Assembly: GCF_030538755.1 (NCBI RefSeq)
Contig: NZ_JAUNTJ010000008.1
Span: 59,793-123,792 of the forward strand
Length of the DNA stretch: 64,000 nucleotides
From: Paracoccus sp. (in: a-proteobacteria)
GTDB taxonomy: Bacteria; Pseudomonadota; Alphaproteobacteria; Rhodobacterales; Rhodobacteraceae
Reading direction: 5' to 3'
A program made the position numbers and the translations under genes. Positions 4,538 to 22,185 of the stretch are shown in pieces. Every line of letters begins with the position of its first letter. The stretch's first letter is position 1. The notes under the pieces were generated by a model. That model was not told the origin of the DNA, ran no database searches, and saw only the letters and a program-made list of their open reading frames with translations.

Positions 4538-6450
<1,913 letters not shown>

Positions 6451-6454
<4 letters not shown>

Positions 6455-8544
6455 TGGTTACGAACCTCGGGGCTCAAATGAAACGCCGCCACACTGTCGG
6501 CGGCGATGGATTCGGATGCGCCGGCGGGGGCGGCGGCAAAGGCATCGGGGCGGGCGGTGTCCAGCGCGCGCTGCCAGCGCAGGCCCGGCGGCGGGTCGGG
6601 CAGGCGCACCTGAGTGGCCTCGCCCGCGTTGAACACCAGAAACAGCGCGCCTTCGCGGGCGGCATAATCGGGCGTGCCGGATGCCATGCGCTTTTCCACC
6701 GCCAGCAGGCGCAGGTCGGGGTCGGTCCAATCGGCGGTTTCCATCGGGGCGCCATCGGCGCGGCGCCAGAACAGATCGGGCAGGCCGTCCTGCGGGCGGG
6801 GCTGCGAATGCAGGAACCGGCGCTGCCGCAGGATCGGATGGGCGCGGCGAAAGGCGATCAGCGCGCGGCAAAAGGTCAGAAAGCCCCGGTCGGCCCGGCC
6901 CCAATCCAGCCAGCCGATGGGGTTGTCCTGACAATAGGCGTTGTTGTTGCCCTGCTGCGAATTGCCCAGCTCGTCGCCCGCCAGCATCATCGGCGTGCCC
7001 TGCGACAGCATCAGCGTGGCCAGCAGGTTGCGCCGCCGCCTTTCGCGCCGGGCGGTCAGGGCGGGATCGCGCGATGGCCCCTCGGTTCCCATATTGTCCG
7101 ACAGGTTGTGGTCGTGGCCGTCGCGGTTATCCTCGCCATTGGCGTCGTTGTGTTTATGGGCGTAGCTGACCGTATCCATCAGCGTAAAGCCGTCATGCGC
7201 GGTGACAAAGTTCACCGAGGACGTCGCCAGCCGCCCGTCGCGATCGAACCGCGCCGAAGATCCGGCGATACGCTTGGCCAGCTTGCCGGTCAGCCCGGCA
7301 TCGCCGCGCCAAAAGCTGCGGATCTGATCGCGGAAACGGTCGTTCCATTCGGCAAAGGGCGCGGGAAAATTGCCAAGCTGATAGCCGTCATCGCCGATGT
7401 CCCACGGCTCGGCGATCAGTTTCACCTGCGCCAGCACCGGGTCCTGGCGGATGGCCTGAAAGAACGGCGCCTGCGCGCTGAACATGCCGCCGGTGCGCGC
7501 CAGCACCGGGGCCAGATCAAAGCGGAACCCGTCCACCCGCATCACCTGCACCCAATAGCGCAGCGAATCCATAACCATGCGCAGCACAAAGGGGTTGTCG
7601 AAATTCAGCACATTGCCGGTGCCGGCATCGTTGACATAGAACCGTCGATCTTCGGTCAGGCGGTAATAGCTGGCATTGTCCAGCCCGCGAAAGTTCAGCG
7701 TCGGGCCAAGCTGGTCGCCCTCGGCGGTGTGGTTATAGACGACATCCAGAATCACCTCGATCCCGGCGGCGTGAAAGCGGGCGACCATCTGCTGAAATTC
7801 CGCGATGCTGTCGCCGCACAGATACCGGGGGTCGGGCGCGAAAAAGCCCATGGTCATATAGCCCCAGTAGTTGCGCAGCCCCCGGTCCACCAGAAAGCGG
7901 TCGTTGATGAAGGCCTGCACCGGCAGCAGTTCGATGGCGGTGATCCCCAGCCGGGTCAGGTGATCCAGCACCGGATCGGATGCCATGGCCTGAAACGTGC
8001 CCGGATGCGCAATATCGCTGCGCTGCGCGGTCATGCCTTTGACATGCGCCTCGTAGATCACCGTTTCCGACAGCGGGCGTGCGGGGGCGCGGTCATCGCC
8101 CCATGAAAAGGCCGGGTCGGTGACGACACAGCGGGGCATGAAGGGCGCACTGTCGCGCGCGTCAAAGCTGACATCGCCCAATGGGTCGCCGGGGCGATAA
8201 CCATACAGCGCATCGTTCCAGCGCGGATGCCCGGTCAGGCGGCGGGCATAGGGATCGAGCAGCAGCTTGTTGGGGTTGAAACGGTGGCCGTCCTCGGGGC
8301 GATAGGGGCCGTGGACGCGATAGGCGTAACGCTGGCCGGGGTGCAGCCCGGCGATATGGCCGTGCCAGACATGGCCATCCCGTTCCGGCAGGTCGATGCG
8401 GGTTTCGCGGCCAGCCGCGTCGAACAGGCACAGCTCGACCCGGCTGGCATGTTCGGAAAACACCGCAAAGTTGACCCCGCCGCCGTCAAAGCTGGCGCCA
8501 AGCGGGGCCGGGCGGCCTGCGGTCAGGGACAGCGCCGCGCTCAT
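6451..8544 (-). CDS. glgX: Glycogen debranching enzyme GlgX (isoamylase type)
   Basis: The 697-residue GH13_11 enzyme hydrolyses alpha-1,6 branches, mainly the short limit-dextrin branches left by glycogen phosphorylase. An N-terminal CBM48-type beta domain (GASFDGGGVNFAVFSEHA) precedes the barrel. Catalytic residues are Asp343 in GFRFDLAP, Glu379 in IAEPWDIG and the Asp of VTAHDGFTL. The motif VIYEAHVKGMT is characteristic of GlgX. ATGA overlaps join it to glgA upstream and to the amylosucrase gene downstream, so it is co-translated within the operon. Confidence 0.96.
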
Positions 8545-10055
8545 GCCGGGGTGCCGGGCAGCAGGTCGCGATAGATCGCGGCATAGGCGCGGGCCGACTG
8601 ATCCCAGCCCACCGGCTGCGCCATGGCATTGGCCTGCATCTGCGCCCAGATGCCGGGCTGGCGATACAGCGCGGCCAGATCGCCTAACGCATTGCGCAGC
8701 GGCTGCGCGCCCACGGGGCTGAACTGGATGCCGGTTGCCACGCCGCGCGCCATCGCCGCGGGCGAGGCGTTGATGACCGTATCGGCCAGCCCGCCGGTCA
8801 GCGCCACCACCGGCAAGGTGCCATAGCGCAGCCCATACATCTGCGTCAGCCCACAGGGTTCAAAGCGCGAGGGGATCACGATGGCATCCCCCCCCGCCAT
8901 CATCCGATGCGACAGCGCCTCGTCATAGCCGATGCGGATGGCGACATTCGGGTGATCGGCGGCAGCAGCGCGAAAAGCGTCTTGCAGCGATGCCTCGCCC
9001 GACCCCAGCAGCGCCAGCTGCCCGCCCTGTTCCAGCAGCGCGGGCAGCGCCTGAATCAGCAGGTCCAGCCCCTTTTGATGTGACATCCGGGATACGACGA
9101 TGCACAGCGGCCCCGGCGCATCCTGGGGCAGGCCGAATTCGCGTTGCAGCAGCGTCTTGTTCGCGGCTTTGCCATGGGCGTCGGCATAGGGCTGAATCAG
9201 CGGGTCGGTGGCGGGGTTCCACACATCCGTGTCGATGCCGTTCAAAATACCGATCAGATCGGCCTGGCGGTGGCGGATCACGCCGTCCAGCCCCATGCCG
9301 AATTCCGGCGTCATCAGTTCGCGCGCATAGGCGGGTGATACGGTGGTGATCCGGTCCGCCCCCATCAGCCCGGCCTTGAGCGCCGAGACATGGCCGTAAA
9401 ACTCATACGCGCCGGAATGATAGCGCGCCGGGTCCAGCCACAGCGCCGGGATGCGGCTGGCGTCCGCCGGGCCGGTAAAGGCGATGTTGTGGACCGTCAT
9501 CACCACGCGCGTGTTGCCCCGGCCCAGATTGTGCAGATATTCGGGGATCAGCCCGGCCTGCCAGTCATGGCCGTGCAAGACATGGGGGCGCCAGCCATCG
9601 GCCAGCCCCTGCCGCGCGATCTGCGCCGCCACCCAGGACAGCGCGGCAAAGCGTTCGGGATTGTCCCACCAGTCGCGCCCGTCCGGGTCAAGATAGGGGT
9701 TGCCGCCCCGCGCGAACAGATGCGGCGCATCCAGCACCAGCAGATCCAGCCCCGCCGCCGTGCCCGCCAGCACCCGCCCATGCCCGCCGAACAGATGCTC
9801 GAACGCGGCCACCGGCCCCGCGCCGTCCAGCGCCTCGATCACCTCGGGGTAGCCGGGGATCAGCGTGCGCATCTGCACCCCTTGCGCCAGCAGCGCGCCG
9901 GGCAGGGCACCGGCCACATCGGCCAAGCCGCCGGTTTTTACCAGCGGCGCGCATTCCGAGGCGACCGACAGAACCCGGATCAGAGACCCTCGGCCCGCCG
10001 GTTCAGCATGTTCTGCGTTATCAGGGTGACGCCCCCTTCGCTGACCCGGAACCAT
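8541..10055 (-). CDS. glgA: Glycogen synthase (ADP-glucose dependent, GT5)
   Basis: The product adds glucose from ADP-glucose to growing alpha-1,4-glucan. Family motifs are [13 protein letters not shown] near the N terminus, [11 protein letters not shown], and the C-terminal region with [13 protein letters not shown]. The coordinates use the only upstream ATG, giving 504 residues and a 76-base overlap with glgC. The conserved N terminus ([13 protein letters not shown]) begins only at base 9980, directly after a CTG that overlaps the glgC stop as CTGA (9983-9981) and has GAGG about 5 bases upstream. Starting there gives 480 residues, close to the usual GlgA length, so that non-standard start is likely the real one. 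No ATG, GTG or TTG fits in between. Confidence 0.93.
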
Positions 10056-11239
10056 TTCGCATCCTCCTGCGCATCCTCGCCGACGATCAGCCCCTCGGGG
10101 ATGGTGACACCCCGGTCGATCACCACCCGTTTCAGCCGGGCGCGGCGGTGGACCGTCACATAGGGCAGCACAACGGCGTGGTCCAGCACCGCATAGCTGT
10201 TGGTCTGCACCTGCGTGAACAGCAGCGAGTTGCGGATTTCCGTGCCCGAGATGATGCAGCCGCCCGACACCATCGACGACACCGCGCTGCCGCGCCGGTC
10301 GGCCTCGTCATGGATGAATTTGGCGGGTGGGGCGCTTTCGGAATAGGTCCAGATCGGCCAGTCGCGATCCCACAGGTTCAGTTCGGGGGTGAAATCGGTC
10401 AGGTCGATATTGGCCTGCCAAAAGGCATCGACGGTGCCCACGTCCTTCCAATAGGTCGGCGCGCCGGGCGCACGCACGCAGGACGTGTCGAACCGATGCG
10501 CCATCGCCTTGCCGTGCCGCACGATCTGCGGGATCAGATCGTTGCCGAAATCATGGCTGGATTGCGAGTCATCGGCATCGCGGATCAGCAGATCGCGCAG
10601 GAACGCCCAGTTGAACACATAGATCCCCATCGAGGCCAGCGACATCTCCGGGTTGCCCGGCATCGGCGGCGGGTCGGCGGGCTTTTCCTGAAACGAGGTG
10701 ATCCGCCCGCCCTGATCCACCGCCATCACGCCAAAGGCCGACGCCTGCGCGCGGGGCACGGTCAGGCAACCGATGGTCACATCGGCGGCGTTTTCCACAT
10801 GTTCGCGCAGCATCTGGCTGTAATCCATCTTGTAGATGTGATCGCCCGCCAGAATGACGACATAATCCACGTCATAGCTGTCCACGATGTCGATATTCTG
10901 CGCCACGGCATCGGCGGTGCCGCGATACCAGTGATCTTCGCTCATCCGTTGCGATGCGGGCAAGATGTCCAGAAATTCGTTGCGCTCGGCGCGGAAAAAG
11001 TTCCAGCCGCGTTGCAGGTGGCGGATCAGGCTGTGGGCCTTGTATTGCGTCGCCACGGCAATCTTGCGGATGCCGGAATTCATCGCGTTCGACAGGGCAA
11101 AGTCGATGATCCGGGTCTTGCCGCCGAAATAGACGGCGGGTTTGACGCGCCGGTCGGTCAGTTCGTGCAACCGGCTGCCCCGGCCCCCGGCCAGCACAAA
11201 GGCCATGGCGCGGCGTGTCAATTGGCGGCTGTCAGGCAT
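9980..11239 (-). CDS. glgC: Glucose-1-phosphate adenylyltransferase (ADP-glucose pyrophosphorylase)
   Basis: GlgC makes ADP-glucose from glucose-1-phosphate and ATP, the committed step of the classical glycogen route. The nucleotidyltransferase signature [12 protein letters not shown] is followed by [22 protein letters not shown] cut across two motifs, with the effector-site region and ADP-glucose pocket of the family, and a C-terminal left-handed helix domain. The start at 11239 gives 419 residues, has AGGGGA in front of it and overlaps the glgB stop by 8 bases. A longer in-frame start at 11281 would run 50 bases into glgB and lacks family similarity, so I did not use it. The enzyme is probably allosterically controlled, as in its relatives. 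Confidence 0.95.
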
Positions 11240-13566: not shown

Positions 13567-15189
13567 ATGCGGGAATGGTGGCGTGATGCGGTGATCTATC
13601 AGGTCTATCCGCGCAGTTATCAAGATAGTGACGGCGATGGCATCGGCGACTTGCGCGGCATTACGTCGCGGCTGGACCATATCGCCGAACTGGGGGCCGA
13701 TGCGATCTGGCTGTCGCCGATCTTTACCTCGCCGATGGAGGATATGGGCTATGACGTGTCGAACTATACCGACATCGACCCTCTGTTCGGGACGCTGGCC
13801 GATTTCGATGCGCTGATCGCGCGGGCGCATGATCTGGGGCTGAAGGTCATCATCGACCAGGTTATCAGCCACTCCAGCGACCGGCACCCGTGGTTCGACG
13901 AAAGCCGCACCAGCCGCGACAACCCCAAGGCCGACTGGTATGTCTGGGCCGATCCCAATCCCGACGGGACGCCGCCCAACAACTGGCTGTCGGTGTTCGG
14001 CGGGCCGGGCTGGGAATGGGAACCGCGCCGCCAGCAATATTACATGCACAACTTTCTGATCTCGCAGCCGGATCTGAACATGCACAACCCGGATGTGCAG
14101 GATGCGGTGACGGGCGCGATGCGGTTCTGGCTGGATCGCGGCGTGGACGGGTTCCGGCTGGATACGGTGAACTATTACTTCCACGACCGCGATCTGCGCG
14201 ACAACCCGCCGCGGCAGCGCAAGGATAACAGCCCGATCAACCAGCCGTTCGATTTTCAGGATCACGTCCATTCCAAGAACCAGCCGGAAAACATCGCCTT
14301 TCTGGCCCGGCTGCGGGCGCTGACCGACGAATTCGACGGCCGCATGATGGTGGGCGAGGTGGGCGACGCGGGCGACACCGGTATTCGGCTGATGGCGCAA
14401 TATACGGCGGGCGATCACATGCTGCACATGTGCTATTCGTTTGAAATGCTGGGGCCGGATTTCACCGCCGCGCATTTCCGCCGGGTGATACAGGGGGTGC
14501 GCGACGGTGCCCCCGACGGCCATTCCTGCTGGAGCTTTTCCAACCATGATGTGCCCCGCCACGTCAGCCGCTGGGCGCAGCACGGCACATCGCGCGTGGC
14601 GCTGGCGCGGCAGAGCGTGGCGATGCTGATGGCCTTTCCGGGCACCATCGGCATCTATCAGGGCGAGGAACTGGGCCAGACCGAAACCGTGATGACCTAT
14701 GACGAGCTGACCGACGCGCAGGCGCTGCGTTACTGGCCCGAGGTCAAGGGCCGTGACGGTTGCCGCACGCCGATGGTCTGGGATGCAGACCAGCCGAACG
14801 CGGGCTTTTCCACCGGCAAGCCGTGGCTGCCGGTCAAACCGCCGCAGGCGGAACAGGCGGTGGCGCAGCAGGGGGATGACGGGGTGCTGGCGGCTTATCG
14901 CGATACCATCGCCTTTCGCCGCAGCCAGCCCTGTCTGCGGCAGGGCGACATCGCCTTTATCGACCTGCCCGAACCCGTGCTGGCCTTTCATCGCAGCCTG
15001 AACGGCCAGACCGTGACCTGCCTGTTCAACCTGTCGCCCGCGCCGGTCGCGCTGACGGTGGCCGGGACGGCGGTGACGGCCATTGGCCCCGGCCTTGGGT
15101 CGGTCAAGGGCGGGCAGATCAGCCTGCCGGGCAGCGGTTTCCTGTTCCTGCAATCACAGGATCAGCCGCCCGAGGTGGCGATGGCCTGA
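13567..15189 (+). CDS. Alpha-glucosidase, GH13 family (GH13_23-like)
   Basis: The 540-residue cytoplasmic GH13 hydrolase would release glucose from maltose, sucrose-type or short malto-oligosaccharides. The N terminus (WWRDAVIYQVYPRSYQDS) and DGIGDLRGI are those of oligo-1,6-/alpha-glucosidases. The catalytic triad is Asp199 in GFRLDTVNYY, Glu264 in MVGEVGD and Asp328 in SNHDVPRH. The start at 13567 has AAAGGGGG upstream; an extended frame upstream of it reads antisense through glgB and is discarded. It diverges from the glycogen operon and its 3' end overlaps the convergent phosphoesterase by 28 bases. Substrate preference (maltose or sucrose) cannot be fixed from sequence. Confidence 0.92.
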   Translation: MREWWRDAVIYQVYPRSYQDSDGDGIGDLRGITSRLDHIAELGADAIWLSPIFTSPMEDMGYDVSNYTDIDPLFGTLADFDALIARAHDLGLKVIIDQVISHSSDRHPWFDESRTSRDNPKADWYVWADPNPDGTPPNNWLSVFGGPGWEWEPRRQQYYMHNFLISQPDLNMHNPDVQDAVTGAMRFWLDRGVDGFRLDTVNYYFHDRDLRDNPPRQRKDNSPINQPFDFQDHVHSKNQPENIAFLARLRALTDEFDGRMMVGEVGDAGDTGIRLMAQYTAGDHMLHMCYSFEMLGPDFTAAHFRRVIQGVRDGAPDGHSCWSFSNHDVPRHVSRWAQHGTSRVALARQSVAMLMAFPGTIGIYQGEELGQTETVMTYDELTDAQALRYWPEVKGRDGCRTPMVWDADQPNAGFSTGKPWLPVKPPQAEQAVAQQGDDGVLAAYRDTIAFRRSQPCLRQGDIAFIDLPEPVLAFHRSLNGQTVTCLFNLSPAPVALTVAGTAVTAIGPGLGSVKGGQISLPGSGFLFLQSQDQPPEVAMA

Positions 15190-15968
15190 ACCCGTCGCCA
15201 GACCCCGCCGCTGCGGTCAAAACCTTGGATGACGGTTTCGGTAAACTCGGCCGGGCCGCTCATCGGGCTGATGCGGCGGGTGATGGTCAGGGCGTCGCCA
15301 TCCAGATCGAGGATGGCAAATTCGTTCTGGCGGTCGCCGGGGCGGTCGCACAGCGCCGTGCCGGCCTGAATTTGCAGCAAGGGCCGCCCCTCAAACGCGG
15401 CGGCCTGCCAGATGTGCAGATGCCCGCTGATGACGATCTGCGCCCCCGCCTGCTGCAAGGCGGCCAGGGCTTCGGGCGCGCCGCGGGCCAGTTGCTTGTC
15501 CACCTGCGGCAATTGTTCCAGCGGATGGTGCAGCATCACGATATTTGTCAGATCCGGCGACAGTGCCGCCACGGCCCGTTCACGCGCGGCCGTGGTGATC
15601 TGCCCGCGCTGCCATGCCAGCGGATCGACCGAGTTGACGCCGATCACCCGCAACCGCCCCGCATCGCGCAGCGGCGACAGATCGCCCCCCATATAGCGCC
15701 GCCAGTTGCGATAGGGCCGCGCCAGCCGTGAAAGCAGCCGATACAGCGGCACATCATGGTTGCCCGCCACGACGACCAGAGGCGCGGCCAGCCCGTCCAG
15801 AAAGCGGCGGGCCTGCTCAAATTGCGCGCTGCGGCCGCGATGGGTCACATCGCCCGCCACCACGATCAGATCGGGCCGCGCATCGTTCACCTGCGCCAGC
15901 AGCGCCGGAACAAGGGCGGCGCGGTGCATCCCGAAATGCAGATCCGACAGCAAGACCAGACGTGTCAT
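15162..15968 (-). CDS. Calcineurin-like metallophosphoesterase
   Basis: The 268-residue protein has the complete dinuclear metal-site motif series: SDLHFG (9-13), GDVTHRG (39-45), GNHD (69-72), a LHHP segment and GHLHIW near the C terminus. This resembles cyclic-nucleotide phosphodiesterase-like and UDP-diacylglucosamine-hydrolase-like members. No signal peptide is visible, so it is cytoplasmic. Its start overlaps the stop of the upstream lipid kinase gene (ATGA), which hints at a shared role in phospholipid or phosphoester turnover, but the substrate is unknown. Confidence 0.88.
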   Translation of the reverse strand: MTRLVLLSDLHFGMHRAALVPALLAQVNDARPDLIVVAGDVTHRGRSAQFEQARRFLDGLAAPLVVVAGNHDVPLYRLLSRLARPYRNWRRYMGGDLSPLRDAGRLRVIGVNSVDPLAWQRGQITTAARERAVAALSPDLTNIVMLHHPLEQLPQVDKQLARGAPEALAALQQAGAQIVISGHLHIWQAAAFEGRPLLQIQAGTALCDRPGDRQNEFAILDLDGDALTITRRISPMSGPAEFTETVIQGFDRSGGVWRRVQAIATSGG

Positions 15969-16894
15969 GCCTGATCCTGTGACGCGGCGGGCAGCAGGAC
16001 GGTCAGCGCGTTGCGGTGGACTTGCAGGCGGAACGGGCCGTCCATGCGGCTCTTTTCGCCGTCATGCGCCACCAGTTGCCGCGCGGGCCGGGTTTCGATG
16101 GTGATCTGATCCGTCACGATCAGGTCAAAGTCGCTGCCCCGCGCCGAGCGCCCAAAGGCCAGCCGCAGCGCCGCACCGATCAGCGGCCATGGGCGGCTGG
16201 CGTGGGCGATCATCAGCGCGAACTTGCCCGCCTCGATCGCCTCTTTGCCGTCCAGATCGAACTGCTCCATTTGCAGGCGGTTGTTGGCGACAAAGGCCAG
16301 TGCGGTGGTAAAGACACGCTCGCCCACGGTCAGCCGCATCGGACGGCGCAGGTTGCGCAGCGCCACGATGACCGACCAATAGGCGGCAATGCGGCTGCGG
16401 CCCCAGCGGCGATAAATATCCTCGCGCTGTTTCAGAATGTCGGGATAGGCGCCAAAGCTGACGTTGTTCAGAAACACCTGCCCGTTGATCGTGCCGACAT
16501 GGATGCGGCCCGTCCGCCCGCCCAGCAGCGTTTCCAGCGCCTGTTCCGGCGTTTCGCCCACCCCCAGATCGCGGGCGAAATAGTTGAACGTGCCGCCGGG
16601 GATCACCCCCATCACCACGTCGCTGCCCGTCAGCGCGCCCGCGATGGCGGATTGCGTGCCGTCGCCGCCCACCGCGACGATCAGCGAAAACCCGTCGCTG
16701 ACCGCCTGCCGCGCCAGTCGCGGCAGGTCATCGCCGCGCGCGGTGCGGATCAGCGAAAATTCGGCTGCGCGCGGGGCCAGTTCGCGTTCCAGCAAGATGG
16801 CGATGTCGTCGCCGGATTGCTTGCCGGACCCCGCGTTCAGGATCACGCAGACCCGCGCGCGGGACAGGTCGAACGGGGTGGTCGGATCGGGCAT
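15965..16894 (-). CDS. Diacylglycerol kinase-family lipid kinase
   Basis: The 309-residue protein matches the DagK catalytic family (YegS/BmrU/DgkB type), which phosphorylates diacylglycerol, sphingoid bases or related lipids with ATP. The nucleotide-binding GGDGT lies at 76-80, VCVILNAGSGK near the N terminus, and GGTFNYFARDLG from 100. Length is normal and no membrane segments are seen, as expected for peripheral members. It overlaps the phosphoesterase start downstream and begins 51 bases after the exosortase stop, with a hairpin between. Co-transcription with the surface-protein genes is possible but not shown. Confidence 0.9.
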   Translation of the reverse strand: MPDPTTPFDLSRARVCVILNAGSGKQSGDDIAILLERELAPRAAEFSLIRTARGDDLPRLARQAVSDGFSLIVAVGGDGTQSAIAGALTGSDVVMGVIPGGTFNYFARDLGVGETPEQALETLLGGRTGRIHVGTINGQVFLNNVSFGAYPDILKQREDIYRRWGRSRIAAYWSVIVALRNLRRPMRLTVGERVFTTALAFVANNRLQMEQFDLDGKEAIEAGKFALMIAHASRPWPLIGAALRLAFGRSARGSDFDLIVTDQITIETRPARQLVAHDGEKSRMDGPFRLQVHRNALTVLLPAASQDQA

Positions 16895-16945: not shown

Positions 16946-18583
16946 TCAGATGATCGCAAGGTTCCCGGTGATGGCCGCAACGGCAAAGACGATCAGGTTG
17001 GCCACCGCATGGGCCAGGATCGCATCCGAAATCCGCCCGCTGCGCCGCGTGACCCAGGAAAAGGCCAGGCCGGCGATCAGCGCCTCGACCCAGCGATCAT
17101 GCAGGGCGGCGAACAGAGCGGCGGTTATCAGCGCCGCCACCAGCACCCGCCACAGCGGCGCGGGCTGATCTGGCGCGCTGCCCCGGATGCGGCTTTCCAG
17201 ATAATCGCGGAAGAACAGCTCTTCGACCAGAGGGACCAGCAGCACGGTGCCGATGCCCCGGAACAGATACCACAGCACCAAGGCCCCGCCGGTCAGCGCG
17301 CCATAGGGCGCCACCTCGGCCGGTTCGACCGGGACCATCACCCAGCCGATGCCAACCGCCGCCCCCACGGCCAGTGCCAAGGGCGAGATGCGCCAGTCAA
17401 GGCTGCGGATGAACGGCCAGAACAGCGCCACGGCAGCGGCCAGCAACAGCACGCGCGCCGGATAGAACATGGCGGGCGATTGCGTGATGGCGGGTACGAC
17501 AACGGCGGTCAGCATGAACACCGCAAAGGGCAGGATGCGCGCCGCCTGCGGGTCGTGGCGCAGGGGCGGCGGGGCGACGAATTGCCGGGGGGCGGCATCC
17601 GCCGTGACGGTTCCGTAATCCTTGCGCAGCCACGGGATATTGCGGGCGACGCCGATAATCCCCAGTGCAATCAGGGTGAACATGATCCAGCCGGCATGGC
17701 TGTGAAAGCCGCCTGCGGCCAGTTCGGGCTGCCCCTCCAGCCCGATCATCATCAGCACGGCGATCCGCACCACGTTCAGAATGGCGCTGGCCAGAATACC
17801 CAGCGGATACAGGATCAACGCATGGGGAAAGCGGATTTCGGCGCGAAACAGCCACAGGTAAAGCGTGACGAACAGCGTGACCAGCGCGATACCCTCGACC
17901 CCGGAACAGACCGGCGCGATCGAGATGGCAAAGTTTTCGCCCCACAGGATTTTGGTTTCCGGTTCCGGCGTGATCGGATAGCCAAAGCCGCCGACGATGG
18001 CCACCACCGCGCGGAAGGTGATGTCGGCCACCGTGTCCAGATGCCAGATCGGTTGCAGCTTCATCGCCAGCGGCGGCGTCAGCATACCGGCGATGGCCGC
18101 CACCGGCAGGGCGGGGCCTGCCGCGCGCAAAAAGCGGCCCCAGCGGGCGGCGGGGGCCAGATACAGCGCCAGCCCGGCCAGCATCAGCGCCATGCCGCCG
18201 ACCCAGAAGGCGAATGAGGGCAGCACCATCGACCGCGCCTCGGCGGTTTCGCGCAGGAACAGCACCGGCACAAAGGTCAGCGCAAAGCCAAGGGCGTTCA
18301 GCGCCAGCGGCCGCAGATCGCGGCCCGTATCCGACAGCAGATCGGCAAACAGGTTGCGCCGCAGCAGCGCAAACAGGCCAATCGCGGCGGCGGCGCAGTA
18401 AATGCCCGCCAGTGCCCGGCTGGCCCCGCCACAGGCCGCAGCAGGCCAGTAATCAAGACAGTAAAAATTGATGCCATGTTTGAACACCAGCCCGATGGCC
18501 AGCAGTTGCATGGCCAGCAGCGCGGCGGCAAAGATCAGCGGCCGGATGCGGGGGCGCGGATTGGTCTGTGCGGTCGCAAACAT
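16946..18583 (-). CDS. xrtE: Exosortase E/CPBP-family protease fusion (VPEID-CTERM system)
   Basis: This 545-residue multi-spanning membrane protein joins two enzymes. The N-terminal half is an exosortase with the three expected catalytic residues: Cys226 in APVCSGVEG, Arg273 in LNVVRIAV and a His in GFHSHAGW (His294 or 296). Exosortases cleave a C-terminal sorting signal and are thought to transfer the protein to a surface acceptor. The C-terminal half is a CPBP intramembrane protease with EELFFR (Glu454-Glu455, Arg459), FAALH and HAVAN. This fusion is the hallmark of exosortase E. The start at 18583 has AGAGGAAGG upstream. The gene lies 74 bases downstream of a gene encoding a matching VPEI-CTERM substrate. 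Confidence 0.92.
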   Translation of the reverse strand: MFATAQTNPRPRIRPLIFAAALLAMQLLAIGLVFKHGINFYCLDYWPAAACGGASRALAGIYCAAAAIGLFALLRRNLFADLLSDTGRDLRPLALNALGFALTFVPVLFLRETAEARSMVLPSFAFWVGGMALMLAGLALYLAPAARWGRFLRAAGPALPVAAIAGMLTPPLAMKLQPIWHLDTVADITFRAVVAIVGGFGYPITPEPETKILWGENFAISIAPVCSGVEGIALVTLFVTLYLWLFRAEIRFPHALILYPLGILASAILNVVRIAVLMMIGLEGQPELAAGGFHSHAGWIMFTLIALGIIGVARNIPWLRKDYGTVTADAAPRQFVAPPPLRHDPQAARILPFAVFMLTAVVVPAITQSPAMFYPARVLLLAAAVALFWPFIRSLDWRISPLALAVGAAVGIGWVMVPVEPAEVAPYGALTGGALVLWYLFRGIGTVLLVPLVEELFFRDYLESRIRGSAPDQPAPLWRVLVAALITAALFAALHDRWVEALIAGLAFSWVTRRSGRISDAILAHAVANLIVFAVAAITGNLAII

Positions 18584-18606
18584 GGTAAACCCTTCCTCTT
18601 TATGGC

Positions 18607-18635
18607 GGCAGGCCCGCCTTGCGGGCGGACCTGCC
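18607..18635 (-). other. Strong hairpin between the CTERM-peptide and exosortase genes
   Basis: A 12-base stem (GGCAGG-CCCGCC against GGCGGACCTGCC, with a G-U pair in the minus-strand RNA) fills most of the 74-base gap. There is no U tract. It could protect the 3' end of the small upstream message and lower read-through into the exosortase gene, giving excess substrate over enzyme. Confidence 0.55.
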
Positions 18636-18657
18636 AATGTTTCAGACCTCAATGAGA

Positions 18658-18861
18658 TCAGGCCGCGCGGCGGCGGCGTTCCCAGGTCAGCAGCACGACG
18701 GCGGCCAGAGCGGCGATTGCCGCAGTGCCTTCCAGCGCGCTGATTTCCGGCACCAGCGTCGGGTCGCAGCCCGGACCAGTGCAGCCACCGGCCGCCTGAG
18801 CGGTCGAGGCGATCATCGAGGAGAGAGCGGCGGCAACGCCACCAAATGCGAACTTCTTCAT
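18658..18861 (-). CDS. VPEID-CTERM-type sorting-domain micro-protein, exosortase E substrate
   Basis: The 67-residue product has three parts. Residues 1-23 are a Sec signal peptide ending STAQA. Residues 24-36 are a short segment with Cys27 and Cys32. The CTERM sorting signal follows: VPEIS at 37-41, a hydrophobic helix at about 44-60 and the basic tail ERRRR. The family motif is VPEID; here Ser replaces Asp. The adjoining exosortase E would cleave near VPEI, leaving an exported peptide of roughly 14-18 residues. The start at 18861 is preceded by ACGGAG; a longer frame to 18918 has no signal-peptide character. The function of the released peptide is unknown. Confidence 0.85.
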   Translation of the reverse strand: MKKFAFGGVAAALSSMIASTAQAAGGCTGPGCDPTLVPEISALEGTAAIAALAAVVLLTWERRRRAA

Positions 18862-18971
18862 GCTACATAGCTCCGTAACAACGAACGAGCGTCCAGGAGA
18901 CCCGTTCACACACGACACAGGATCACCGGGTGGTGATCCAGATCCCGGTCCATGGACAACCGGGATTGCAA

Positions 18972-18999
18972 CGCGGGGCCAGACAGGCCCGGCCCCGCG
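18972..18999 (-). terminator. Hairpin after the large surface-protein gene
   Basis: CGCGGGGCC and GGCCCCGCG form a perfect 9-base stem with a 10-base loop, 13 bases after the stop. The U tract is minimal (UU), so termination may be partial, letting some transcripts reach the CTERM-peptide gene. Confidence 0.5.
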
Positions 19000-19011
19000 C
19001 TTTAGCCTGGA

Positions 19012-22000
19012 TCAGCACAGGCAATCCAGTGCCAGATCATTCCAATTTACACCGATAATGAACGGTTGTTCGTGGTCGCCGTTCTGGCCGGTCGGCTCAA
19101 GGATCAGGCCGATGATGTCGCCCTCGCCCGCTTCAAAGCCGTTACCCTGCGCCATGGCCATGTCGTAGATTTCCTGCGCATTGGCCGTGGTGCCGTAGTT
19201 ATAGTCATCCTGCACGAACACGATACCGTCGGTCAGACCCCAGATGGCGCCCTGAATTTCGGCTTCGGTGTAGGTGCCACCTTCGCCGTTGTCCATCGAG
19301 CCAAAGTCCTGATTCAGGATCCAGTTCACCTTGTCCAGGTTCTGCGGCAGCGGGATTTGCGTGCTGCTGGGAACCGAGTCGGCGTCGGCCAGATAGATAT
19401 TGACCGGCAGGTTGGTGCTCAGCGGCAGGTTGTCATAGGCGGACACGCAATAGGCGATGTCGAAGGTCTTGCCGTCCAGACGATCGTCGCCGGTGCCCGT
19501 CACCGTGGCGGTGTAGAAAGAGCCGTCGGACGAACGATCCAGCGTCACACGCAGCACGCCGCTGTCGGGCAGGCTGGCCGCGATGCTTTCCAGCGTGTTG
19601 GTCACGCCGCACCACTTCATGTTGACCGCCGCGCTGGCGGTGCCGCCCATGCCGTCGCTGATGGAATAACCATAGTTGACGGTGGTGCTGGTGCCGACGA
19701 TCTGATCTTCGTAGCTGGTGCCCGAGGCGTCGAACACAAGCTGGCCGCTGGTCAGGGTGACGCGGACGCCATCCGACAGGGTCAGCGTCTGGCCATCGGC
19801 AATCGCCCGGCCCGCCACATGGGTGATGCTCAGCGCATCGCCGTCTGCGTCGGTGTCATTGGCCAGCACGTCCACGGTCACGGGTTTGTCGGCGCAGGTG
19901 TGGGCGCTGTCGTTGTTCGCAACCGGGGCACGGTTGTCGAGGACCAGACCGGCATCGACAGTCAGGTTGGCTTCACCGACCGCCAGCGAGATGGTGCCGG
20001 TGCGGCCGGTGGCCTGTGCGGCGTCGCTGTCGATGGCGTCGTCGCTGCCAGCATTCGCGGTGGTAAAGCTGTAACCATCGGGGCGGGCAAAGCCGACCTG
20101 ATAATCGCCAGCCTGCAAGCCGGTGAACAGGTATTTGCCGTTCGCGTCGGTGGTGGTGGTCGCCACCACGGCGCCGGTCGCGGCGTTATACAGGGTCACG
20201 GTCACGCCGGCGCGGCCGGTGTCGCCATTGTCCTGAATGCCGTTGCGGTTGCTGTCCACCCAGACGTAATCGCCCAGCGAAGCGGTGCCCGGATCCTTGT
20301 AACCGGCGTCCACGTCCTTGACGTTCTGGCCGATATTCACCGTATAGCTGCCGGTCTGGCCCGTCGAGGGGTTGGCGTCGCTGTCGATGGTGTCGTTGTT
20401 GCCGACATTCGCGTCGGTCAGCACGCGGCCATCCGCATCGGTCGGGAAGACAACGGTATAGCTGCCCGCGTCCAGACCGTCGAACTTGTAGGAACCATCG
20501 GCGCCGGTCACGGTCACGGCAACGACATTGCCGTTGGCGTCCAGCAGTTGCACGGTCTGGCCGGGGATGCCGGGTTCGTTGTTGTCCAGCCCGTCCTTGT
20601 TCTGGTCAAGGAACGCACGGCCTTCCAGCGAGGCGGTGCCGGGGTCTTTCAGACCGGCATCGACATCGCTGGTGGTTTCGCCCGCGACGACGGCATAGGC
20701 ACCGGTGCGGCCGGTCGAGACATTGGCATCGCTGTCGATGGTGTCGTCATTGCCGACGTTCTGCTGGGTCAGCACACGACCGTTGACCGAGGTCGGGAAC
20801 ACAACGGTATAGTTGCCCGGCTGAAGGTTGCTGAACAGATAGGAACCATCGGCGGCGGTGGTGGTGGTGCCGACCACGTTGCCGTTGGCGTCCAGCAGTT
20901 GCACGGTCACGCCCTGCACGCCGGGTTCGCTGTTGTCCAGCCCGTCCTTGTTCTGGTCGATGAACACACGGCCTTCCAGTGCGCCGACGCTGGGACCGCT
21001 GGGGCACAGGGTCAGCTTGTCGATCTTGGCATATTCGCAATATTTGCCTTCGGCGCTCAGCTTGATGACATCGCCGGGTTTCAGGTCGAGGTTCTCGATC
21101 GTCACCTCGTTCCAGCGGTTGTTGTCTTTGTTCAGGCTGACCGTCTGGACCAGCTTGTTGTTGACATAAACCCGGATCGACCCGCTGCCCGCCGTATCGG
21201 TATAGCGCAGGGTCATGTCGAATTCGCCCGCCGGACCCTTGTAGGTCGTATAGGCATAGCCGCTGTAACCGGTCAGGCCGATGACCTTGCCTTCCGACGC
21301 GCCCGAGGTGGTGCCGACGCGCATGTTGCACAGCTGCATGGATTCAGCTTCGATGACCTGACAGGCGGGGGTGCCTTCGTCCACGTCCTTGACGCAAACG
21401 CTCAGCTCTTTGTTGGCGACGCCGCCCTTGCCGTCGTCCACGGCCACGATCACCTTATAGGTGTTGGTGCCGGCCTTGGAACCGGGGGTTTCGTAATCGG
21501 GGGCCTTTACAAAGCTCAGCTCGCCGGTTTTGGCGTCGATGGTGAACGAACCGGCATCGGTGCCGCCCACGATCTTGAACGTCAGCGAGTCGCCGTCCGC
21601 GTCGGTGGCGTTCAGCTTGATGACCAGCTTGTTGTTTTCGTCAACGCAGAACACGCCGTCCTTGGGGACGTTGGTAAAGGTCGGCGGGGTGTTCGGCGGG
21701 GCCGAGGAACCGGCGCCCAGGCAGTTGTAGTTGATCCACGAACCCGAAACCGCGCAGGTCTGCACGACGGACAGGCTGACACCGGCCGGAGGGGTGGCGC
21801 CATAGAAGGTGAAATAGCCGTTGCCCGCACCGGGGGAATCATGGCCTTCGACGATGATGTCGATCAGGTAATAGGACTTGCCGTCCGAACCTTTCAGCAC
21901 ATGGTATTTGTCAGCATACATCTTGCAGCCGGTGCCGGTGCCGTTGAGGGTGGCGTCCTGACCCGAACGGTCGCTGGACTGGGTGCGGCCGGTCCACCAG

Positions 22001-22185
22001 TTCTTGGAACCGCCGCTCAGCGCGCCGTCATCGTCCTTGGTGGACATGGTGACGGTGGGCGCTTTCGGCATCACGAAGGTGTCGCCCCGGCCAAAATCCG
22101 ATCCGTTCTTGCCGTTGGCCAGCAGATCGGCTTCGGTGAAAGCCGTCCATGTATAGGTTTTTGTGGTGCTATAGTAATACGTCAC
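19012..22185 (-). CDS. Large multidomain surface/adhesin-like protein with SdrD B-type repeats and a thioester-like C-terminal domain
   Basis: The 1057-residue protein starts at a GTG (22185) with AGGAGGG 7 bases upstream. Domains by eye: an unrecognised N-terminal region to about 160; a cadherin-like domain, about 165-270 (NATDADGDSLTF); a carbohydrate-binding-module-like domain, about 272-395 (VIEAESMQL); three SdrD B-type domains from about 400, 520 and 635 (DQNKDGLDN, DSNRNGIQDN); a second cadherin-like domain, about 755-860 (VLANDTDADGDALS); and a C-terminal domain with YCVSAY (Cys913) and EIQGAIWGLTDG (Gln978). The last resembles thioester domains of Gram-positive adhesins. No signal peptide, membrane anchor, CTERM signal or RTX repeats are visible, so the export route is unclear. 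A role in adhesion is inferred. Confidence 0.8.
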   Translation of the reverse strand: MTYYYSTTKTYTWTAFTEADLLANGKNGSDFGRGDTFVMPKAPTVTMSTKDDDGALSGGSKNWWTGRTQSSDRSGQDATLNGTGTGCKMYADKYHVLKGSDGKSYYLIDIIVEGHDSPGAGNGYFTFYGATPPAGVSLSVVQTCAVSGSWINYNCLGAGSSAPPNTPPTFTNVPKDGVFCVDENNKLVIKLNATDADGDSLTFKIVGGTDAGSFTIDAKTGELSFVKAPDYETPGSKAGTNTYKVIVAVDDGKGGVANKELSVCVKDVDEGTPACQVIEAESMQLCNMRVGTTSGASEGKVIGLTGYSGYAYTTYKGPAGEFDMTLRYTDTAGSGSIRVYVNNKLVQTVSLNKDNNRWNEVTIENLDLKPGDVIKLSAEGKYCEYAKIDKLTLCPSGPSVGALEGRVFIDQNKDGLDNSEPGVQGVTVQLLDANGNVVGTTTTAADGSYLFSNLQPGNYTVVFPTSVNGRVLTQQNVGNDDTIDSDANVSTGRTGAYAVVAGETTSDVDAGLKDPGTASLEGRAFLDQNKDGLDNNEPGIPGQTVQLLDANGNVVAVTVTGADGSYKFDGLDAGSYTVVFPTDADGRVLTDANVGNNDTIDSDANPSTGQTGSYTVNIGQNVKDVDAGYKDPGTASLGDYVWVDSNRNGIQDNGDTGRAGVTVTLYNAATGAVVATTTTDANGKYLFTGLQAGDYQVGFARPDGYSFTTANAGSDDAIDSDAAQATGRTGTISLAVGEANLTVDAGLVLDNRAPVANNDSAHTCADKPVTVDVLANDTDADGDALSITHVAGRAIADGQTLTLSDGVRVTLTSGQLVFDASGTSYEDQIVGTSTTVNYGYSISDGMGGTASAAVNMKWCGVTNTLESIAASLPDSGVLRVTLDRSSDGSFYTATVTGTGDDRLDGKTFDIAYCVSAYDNLPLSTNLPVNIYLADADSVPSSTQIPLPQNLDKVNWILNQDFGSMDNGEGGTYTEAEIQGAIWGLTDGIVFVQDDYNYGTTANAQEIYDMAMAQGNGFEAGEGDIIGLILEPTGQNGDHEQPFIIGVNWNDLALDCLC

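Follow-up and report, generated by a model that had tools for sequence, protein, structure and literature searches.

A putative exosortase E micro-substrate encoded beside a thioester-domain surface protein gene in Paracoccus and related bacteria

The locus described here lies in a stretch of 64,000 nucleotides of Paracoccus sp. (contig NZ_JAUNTJ010000008.1), which is called the window below. A gene for a very small protein, the micro-gene, stands on the minus strand between a gene for a large surface protein and a gene for an exosortase. The features are as follows, with coordinates of the window.

18658..18861, minus strand: open reading frame (ORF) of 67 amino acids, putative VPEIS-type (VPEID-CTERM-like) micro-substrate of exosortase E (translation, profile match, homologues)
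18793..18861, minus strand: predicted Sec signal peptide, residues 1-23, with the cleavage site placed by the AxA rule
18754..18792, minus strand: mature stretch AGGCTGPGCDPTL with CxxxxC (sequence)
18661..18753, minus strand: sorting tail composed of VPEIS, a transmembrane helix and RRRR (TIGR04161, 31.1 bits, cut-off 33)
16946..18583, minus strand: exosortase E fused to a CPBP/Rce1-like intramembrane protease (TIGR04162, 395.5 bits; PF09721; PF02517)
18853..19004, minus strand: predicted RNA element with four hairpins, between the micro-gene and the surface protein gene (folding, covariation, covariance model)
19012..22185, minus strand: large surface protein, 1057 amino acids when read from GTG 22185, a start set by comparison with homologues
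19015..19809, minus strand: C-terminal module of the surface protein (alignment A1) with predicted thioester domain PF08341 (24.6 bits, cut-off 22)
19447-19449 (Cys), 19252-19254 (Gln of QGAIW), 19066-19068 (Gln) and a terminal C-x-C, minus strand: key residues of the module (alignment A1)

The micro-gene translates into MKKFAFGGVAAALSSMIASTAQA (signal peptide), AGGCTGPGCDPTL (mature stretch) and VPEISALEGTAAIAALAAVVLLTWERRRRAA (tail), followed by a stop codon. The expected signal-peptidase site, AQA/A, falls after residue 23; all signal-peptide sites in this study were placed by rule rather than by a predictor. From there 13 residues lead to VPEI, the beginning of the 31-residue VPEIS tail, and the two cysteines are residues 27 and 32 (CxxxxC). 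The initial annotation had read the same parts from 18658-18861 (a signal peptide of 23 residues, 13 further residues with Cys27 and Cys32 in a CxxxxC spacing, and VPEI), and its description of the anatomy holds. It made no mention of the conserved genes on either side, for exosortase E and for the thioester-domain protein, or of the structured gap.

The tail scored 31.1 bits (E 1.7e-7) against the NCBIfam model TIGR04161 (VPEID-CTERM), 1.9 bits below the curated cut-off of 33. The match covers positions 1-29 of the 31 in the model, and the motif, helix and basic cluster of the tail align along it at the C-terminus. In the genome search the same tail scored 32.1 bits, and those of the relatives G006 and G021 reach 34.1. 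By its profile score the tail is a VPEIS variant, borderline VPEID-CTERM and short of full TIGR04161 membership. The exosortase E at 16946-18583 scored 395.5 bits against TIGR04162, with a threshold of 150, and both PF09721 and PF02517 were above their cut-offs. It contains the C-x-G, N-x-x-R, H-x-x-x-G and EExxxR motifs, and among 59 exosortase loci the Cys pattern was found in 58, the Arg pattern in 56, the His pattern in 58 and the EE..FR pattern in 49. The ten loci that miss the EE pattern have near matches to it, for example EEAFFR, and the single Cys miss is CSGY. The enzyme is 94% identical to that of a Paracoccus MAG, its closest named relative among the genomes that matched the peptide patterns of the search, which took in only such genomes. 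The genome of the window carries a second exosortase gene (G000:C24, PF09721 223.7 bits).

As the tail lies near the TIGR04161 cut-off and its neighbour scores 395.5 bits to TIGR04162, tail and enzyme are, judged by profiles, of a catalogued kind. The micro-protein had been described as unlike typical PEP-CTERM substrates, and this is correct as far as the protein is concerned; the kind itself, a tail together with exosortase E, is already catalogued (TIGR04161/TIGR04162). The basic reading of the ORF as an exosortase micro-substrate stands on these matches, and cleavage by exosortase E at its motif is predicted. Directly 3' of the exosortase gene, at 15162-16894 on the minus strand, are a lipid-kinase-like (DAGK) gene and a calcineurin-like phosphoesterase gene; these are in none of the listed gene clusters that span at least 6 of the 59 exosortase loci.

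The sequence comparisons indicate that the micro-gene is a real gene, because relatives keep it and the tails diverge synonymously at codons for identical residues. The PEIS tails (n=32, counted after 11 locus ids and L109 had been dropped) have a mean identity of 85%, and codons for identical residues differ synonymously in 42%. In the mature stretch, the window and L003 differ by four synonymous and no nonsynonymous codon changes. The codon data point to selection acting on the protein. In P. fistulariae the micro-protein, 62.7% identical to that of the window, is annotated as a CDS for a hypothetical protein.

The large surface protein begins with an N-terminal domain without a Pfam match, followed by a cadherin/Ig domain, three SdrD_B domains, an Ig domain and the C-terminal thioester domain. 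Its translation probably starts at GTG 22185, since homologues begin there with MTYYY or similar. A Sec signal peptide and a sorting tail were sought on the protein (19012-22185) by inspection, and none was seen. Scores against PF08341 were 24.6 bits for the C-terminal module and 22.1 bits for the long ORF (cut-off 22), and 21 of the 23 members of alignment A1 match at E <= 0.1. Cys121, Gln186, Trp190 and Gln248 are invariant in A1 (n=23). The motifs described for thioester domains are [YFL]C-hydrophobic-hydrophilic, TQxx-hydrophobic-W and a Gln motif (PMC4450167, PMC6194298). YCVS in the window fits the first of these as worded in PMC4450167, its Cys being invariant in the 23 members, and the counterpart of the second is IQGAIW, in which Gln and Trp are invariant and Thr is not kept. 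Gln248 lies 127 residues past the Cys; by published residue numbers the distance is 129 in CpTIE, and SfbI and PnTIE have 152-153. The context of Gln248 is EQPFI, and the published context of the thioester Gln reads hydrophobic-Q-hydrophilic-hydrophobic-hydrophobic (PMC4450167). An invariant Cys-x-Cys was also observed at or near the C-terminus of all 23 A1 members (positions 263-265; window 19015-19023).

An AlphaFold2 model of the module had a mean pLDDT of 89.8. When it was compared with PDB structures, six of the matches at ranks 1-8 were titled thioester domain or TIE, and the other two belong to the streptococcal adhesin FNE (two chains of 5dcq), the title of which is silent on the matter. 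The best match, 5a0n, had E 1.8e-3, probability 1.00 and TM 0.39/0.46; no match was below E 0.001, and ranks 5, 6 and 8 had probabilities of 0.14-0.54. Motifs and model together argue for a thioester-domain fold, with the bond itself predicted. A PDB sequence search with the module gave no match below E 0.39. For the N-terminal domain of the adhesin (pLDDT 74.6) the structure search gave no informative match, nor did an NCBIfam search with both modules give anything informative.

The position of the two genes was compared in two ways. The first was an all-against-all ORF comparison of 59 exosortase loci, the set that remained once 13 locus ids had been dropped as second copies or as too short or truncated. 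The second used 38 gene pairs. Besides the pair of the window, 22 came from the set of 26 near-full-length exosortase loci and eight from survey loci; the others were those of G234, G206, G194 and G035, and one each from Cereibacter, Rhodovulum and Poseidonocella. Repeat genomes were counted once and L123, with a broken thioester gene, was excluded. A pair was defined by a readable module end and micro-gene; the thioester ORF runs off the contig or contains N in, for example, L118, L156 and L003. The 38 pairs were chosen for having both genes, and less biased figures come from the 59-locus comparison and from the survey of 295 genomes discussed below.

The surface protein gene was found at a fixed place in 32 of the 59 loci (in L123 by a 3' remnant alone), and the micro-gene adjoins it on the same strand in all 32; the remaining 27 loci have no thioester gene in the fetched stretch. 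The other common ORFs were the exosortase itself and ORFs antisense to these genes, together with an ABC-ATPase-like cluster in 26 of the 59 loci, at scattered places and on both strands. In the 38 pairs the gap between thioester gene and micro-gene is 102-177 nt. The pair remains together in L143, where it is inverted relative to the exosortase, and in Cereibacter ovatus, Rhodovulum kholense and Poseidonocella sedimentorum, where it is adjacent on a contig (120,425, 272,027 and 223,211 bases, respectively) other than that of the exosortase (60,359, 64,066 and 54,025 bases). These three are among four of the 26 near-full-length loci in which both genes are missing beside the exosortase; in the fourth genome, a MAG, neither gene of the pair was found. 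Two genomes with the pair, G035 and G194, gave no exosortase by PF09721 (E <= 0.01) or TIGR04178 (E <= 0.1). The former is taken to be P. fistulariae, in which the pair is on the complete plasmid p90204 (NZ_CP067137.1) with the neighbour annotated as 'SdrD B-like domain-containing protein'. As the pair is intact with the exosortase inverted (one case), on another contig (three) or undetected (two), the two genes are bound more closely to each other than to the exosortase gene. The link between micro-gene and thioester gene is conserved and well supported. What looks new is a micro-gene placed 102-177 nt behind an SdrD_B/Ig thioester protein on which neither a signal peptide nor a sorting tail can be seen.

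Two loci deserve mention in this connection. In L123 (G006), at about 4980-7541, the thioester gene is apparently broken by IS21-like transposase ORFs, and the locus still has the micro-gene, the RNA element and the 3' end of the broken gene. On p90204 a Hint-domain protein is encoded after the micro-gene (L201, 9481-10635), where the exosortase would be.

The gap between the two genes would fold into four hairpins, of which loops 2 and 4 are complementary and predicted to form a kissing loop (GUCCAAG/CUUGGAC). The gaps of the 38 pairs fold more stably than their shuffles (40 each), with z < -2 in 31 and a mean of -3.29. In 12 Paracoccus-type sequences 87.4% of the pairs are standard, and in 23 of the 35 pairs both partners have changed. 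None of 500 shuffles of the 12 sequences was as good on any measure, this control leaving relatedness in, and pairing falls to 30-54% when the partners are shifted by 1-3 columns. Five of the seven kissing pairs are invariant and two have compensatory changes, with one unpaired position each in the window and in L003.

Alignment A2 and the covariance model leave out L002, nearly the sequence of the window, and L123, both of which the model recovers, at 88.4 and 75.2 bits, respectively. Over 60 sources it found 14 Paracoccus-type gaps and a weak match in L016 (21.1 bits, E 0.003); L124 had E 0.54. In the search of 61 genomes, run with stricter filters on at most 49 candidates, strong matches (E < 1e-17) occurred only at the micro-gene. 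Six genomes (G000, G006, G018, G021, G028 and G035) had one each, and three more matches had E ~0.02. Searching the gap RNA against Rfam gave one match, with E 0.73 and far below its gathering score. When the loops of each of the 38 gaps were scanned for mutual complementarity, with no shuffle control, leads came from L014, L017, L021 and L027, and many gaps from Paracoccus gave no match, the loops being absent from their best fold. By folding and covariation, the gap in Paracoccus holds a covarying RNA for which a kissing loop is predicted and Rfam has no match. A second GC-rich hairpin (GGCAGGTCCGCCCGCAAGGCGGGCCTGCC) was read by eye between the micro-gene and the exosortase gene (window 18584-18657, minus strand).

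The mature stretch is 3-20 residues long in all 38 pairs, with a median of 12.5, and is rich in Pro, Gly, Thr and Ala. This supports the initial annotation in its view of a micro-substrate with little besides processing signals: the short length is kept, and no long, variable mature region was encountered in the thioester-paired subfamily. The sequence is another matter, the mean pairwise identity being 0.279 in the mature stretch (0.254 with one partner shuffled), 0.492 in the signal peptide and 0.79 in the tail. Of the tails 35 have PEIS and three PEID, and several residues within the tail helix are invariant or nearly so. Cysteines, the conservation of which was another point for homologue comparison, are not conserved across the family: 20 mature stretches have two and 18 have none, with never one or three, and the spacing of the paired cysteines varies from 3 to 10 residues. 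A disulfide is likely where cysteines occur. Since 18 of the 38 homologues do without Cys, it is not required, and a conserved disulfide was for the same reason rejected as the defining feature. A disulfide-linked coat or a sequence-specific signal is hard to square with an identity of 0.279 compared with 0.254 after shuffling. Lys is found in 7 of the 38 mature stretches and a conserved nucleophile is absent.

A rapidly diversifying pheromone was also considered and rejected, as peptide and enzyme drift together. TVAG-type peptides are common to L005, L007 and L009, with exosortases mutually 84-87% identical, and to L018, with an exosortase 72-74% identical to these.

Among 295 genomes of the family searched, exosortase E was found in 34, the tail in 33 and both in 31, and P values for co-occurrence over these genomes ignore shared ancestry. 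Of the tail-bearing genomes 31 have a single tail match, G276 has two and G087 has four. G067, G077 and G201 have the enzyme but no tail match, and G108 and G194 the tail but no enzyme. When the fetched DNA was read, diverged tails appeared in G067 (L110, VPEV) and, near the exosortase, in G077 (L111, APEI). In G201 (L109, 10290-16393) five larger VPEV-tailed ORFs lie beside exosortase E within the fetched 17 kb, and exosortase E is therefore not limited to micro-substrates. Three tandem small VPEI genes by one exosortase E were observed in L106 (G087, 9288-10273), with the fourth copy elsewhere, on the contig of L107.

The thioester module, for which at most 8 candidates per genome were scored, was found at E < 1e-40 in 17 of the 295 genomes, and two further genomes gave only partial matches of about 1e-13 to 1e-14. 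Fourteen of the 17 have the tail, always 208-289 nt from the module, and 13 of these 14 have exosortase E. In the three module genomes without a tail match (G061, G123 and G354) exosortase E is likewise missing; a pattern search of the fetched stretches of G123 and G354 found no tail gene. Conversely, the thioester module is missing from 19 of the 33 genomes that bear the tail, which together with the larger ORFs of G201 means that the thioester partner is not universal to exosortase E systems. Those of the 19 that were fetched have mostly VPEID tails, convergent gene order and longer bodies that are often rich in Trp and Gly. In the convergent VPEID loci L124-L139 many micro-proteins have Trp/Gly-rich bodies of about 10-35 residues by a rough rule, with no thioester neighbour. 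A partner gene at a fixed place was sought in the convergent VPEID loci and none was found, the recurring neighbours resembling ordinary synteny.

The arrangement shares features with several known systems. With VPEID-CTERM/exosortase E (TIGR04161, TIGR04162) it has in common the enzyme fusion, the tripartite tail, mostly one tail match per genome and small substrates. It differs in the VPEIS tail at the edge of the cut-off, in the substrate gene lying upstream on the same strand, and in the thioester-adhesin neighbour, which is missing from the fetched convergent VPEID loci. Signal peptide, motif, helix and basic end, as well as an enzyme with C-x-G, N-x-x-R and H-x-x-x-G, are shared with PEP-CTERM/exosortase (EpsH; PMC1569441). 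There, many substrates per genome (median eight) are encoded in single-gene operons and have Cys-poor bodies rich in Ser, Thr and Asn (PMC1569441), whereas here there is one substrate, nearly body-less, and half of the family has two Cys.

The large protein resembles the Gram-positive thioester (TIE) adhesins with LPXTG in its predicted thioester domain, which has the Cys motif and candidates for the Q-x-x-I-W and Gln motifs, and in its Ig-like repeats. In these adhesins the thioester domain nearly always stands at the N-terminus, and the chain carries its own sorting signal (PMC4450167, PMC6194298). In our protein, from an alphaproteobacterium, the domain is C-terminal with a C-x-C end, and a sorting signal was seen only on the neighbouring micro-gene. 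In GlyGly-CTERM/rhombosortase systems enzyme and single target also tend to adjoin, but the protease belongs to another family and the tail terminates larger proteins (PMC3237569). Among the papers listed by a literature search none was seen to treat exosortase E/VPEID or to link exosortases with thioester adhesins, and an earlier description may exist; PMC12617251, in which both 'thioester domain' and 'exosortase' occur, is an isopeptide-bond survey.

The interpretation we prefer, as a tentative one that we stop short of calling probable, is that the micro-gene encodes a dedicated exosortase E micro-substrate which forms one half of a split surface protein and the peptide of which serves as a tether. 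That the adhesin is what it tethers is what we infer from the following. A sorting signal without a body lies beside an adhesin without a signal, and the length of the peptide is kept while its sequence is not; the tether reading is preferred because it explains both. The Sec pathway would export the micro-protein and its signal peptide would be removed. Exosortase E would then cut at VPE and move the short peptide onto an acceptor in the envelope, a lipid or a glycan, with the fused CPBP protease handling the left-over helix. The displayed peptide could act as a tether or acceptor that keeps the adhesin at the surface, possibly attached via the reactive Cys-Gln thioester of the adhesin and the free N-terminus or a hydroxyl of the peptide. 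Paired cysteines, where present, may form a disulfide that merely stiffens or protects the peptide, and the gap RNA would likely set the dose of peptide relative to adhesin. The most specific version of this scheme is a two-piece covalent anchoring in a Gram-negative envelope, in which exosortase E fixes the peptide, a separately exported thioester adhesin bonds to it and the kissing-loop RNA tunes their ratio; this full combination we regard as unlikely.

Several observations speak against a tether. The pairs without a detected exosortase (G035 and G194) stay unexplained by it, the thioester chemistry would proceed without a conserved nucleophile, Lys being present in only 7 of 38 peptides, and 19 of 33 tail genomes are without the module as 3 of 17 module genomes are without the tail. 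The adjacency of the genes may also stem from co-regulation instead of attachment.

The main rival, which we consider somewhat unlikely, makes the conserved membrane tail the working part, either as a small partner in export, folding or release of the adhesin or as a gate on exosortase E/CPBP, cleavage merely terminating its action. The tail is indeed the conserved part (0.79 compared with 0.28 in the mature stretch) with helix residues invariant or nearly so, pairs persist in two genomes in which no exosortase was detected, and no signal peptide is visible on the adhesin. The substrate of one dedicated enzyme would be equally conserved, however, the order of motif, helix and RRRR is ordinary sorting-signal architecture, and exosortase E accompanies the pair in 13 of 14 surveyed pair genomes.

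That the peptide acts alone, as a signal, a lipid or glycan tag or a coat, with the adhesin gene merely co-regulated, is in our estimate quite improbable. It is in keeping with the short length and the cysteines that come in pairs or not at all, and the 19 of 33 tail genomes without a thioester module imply that the peptide can exist without one. Against it stand a mature sequence that is near-random (0.279, shuffled 0.254), a pairing with the thioester gene that survives rearrangements, and the lack of a receptor-like gene at a fixed place among clusters in at least 6 of the 59 loci. The stand-alone signal or coat envisaged by the initial annotation is less favoured, because the micro-gene adjoins the thioester-adhesin gene wherever both occur in the genomes examined.

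More improbable still is a degenerate substrate, i.e. a former PEP-CTERM protein that lost its body and is kept for occupancy of the exosortase E site or by linkage. The larger VPEV-tailed ORFs beside an exosortase E relative in G201 and the barely conserved mature stretch would suit such an origin; selection at the protein level on the tail over many genera, a pair that is kept when unlinked from the exosortase and a length that stays at about a dozen residues would not. A spurious ORF or chance resemblance, for which the shortness and the 1.9 bits missing to the curated cut-off could be adduced, is refuted by conservation and has practically no probability left: homologues occupy this position in 38 pairs, their codons diverge synonymously and P. 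fistulariae has an annotated CDS.

If the tether interpretation is true, it would provide an instance in which a protein and the sorting signal it needs are encoded separately, and with two-piece anchoring the sorting signal and the sorted protein would be separate gene products. The fixed pairing offers exosortase E a candidate biological purpose, the display of a thioester adhesin. To our knowledge, the acceptor to which exosortases attach their substrates is unsettled. With a substrate body of a dozen residues, the product of an exosortase would be directly readable by mass spectrometry.

A locus of a different make-up was seen in G061, one of the module genomes without a VPEID-type tail match. 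In L168 (3007-7580) the gene of a thioester-domain protein is followed by that of a VPLPA-tailed protein of about 186 amino acids, in surroundings that resemble a locus for EPS synthesis. The pairing may be the same one, here combined with a different sorting system.
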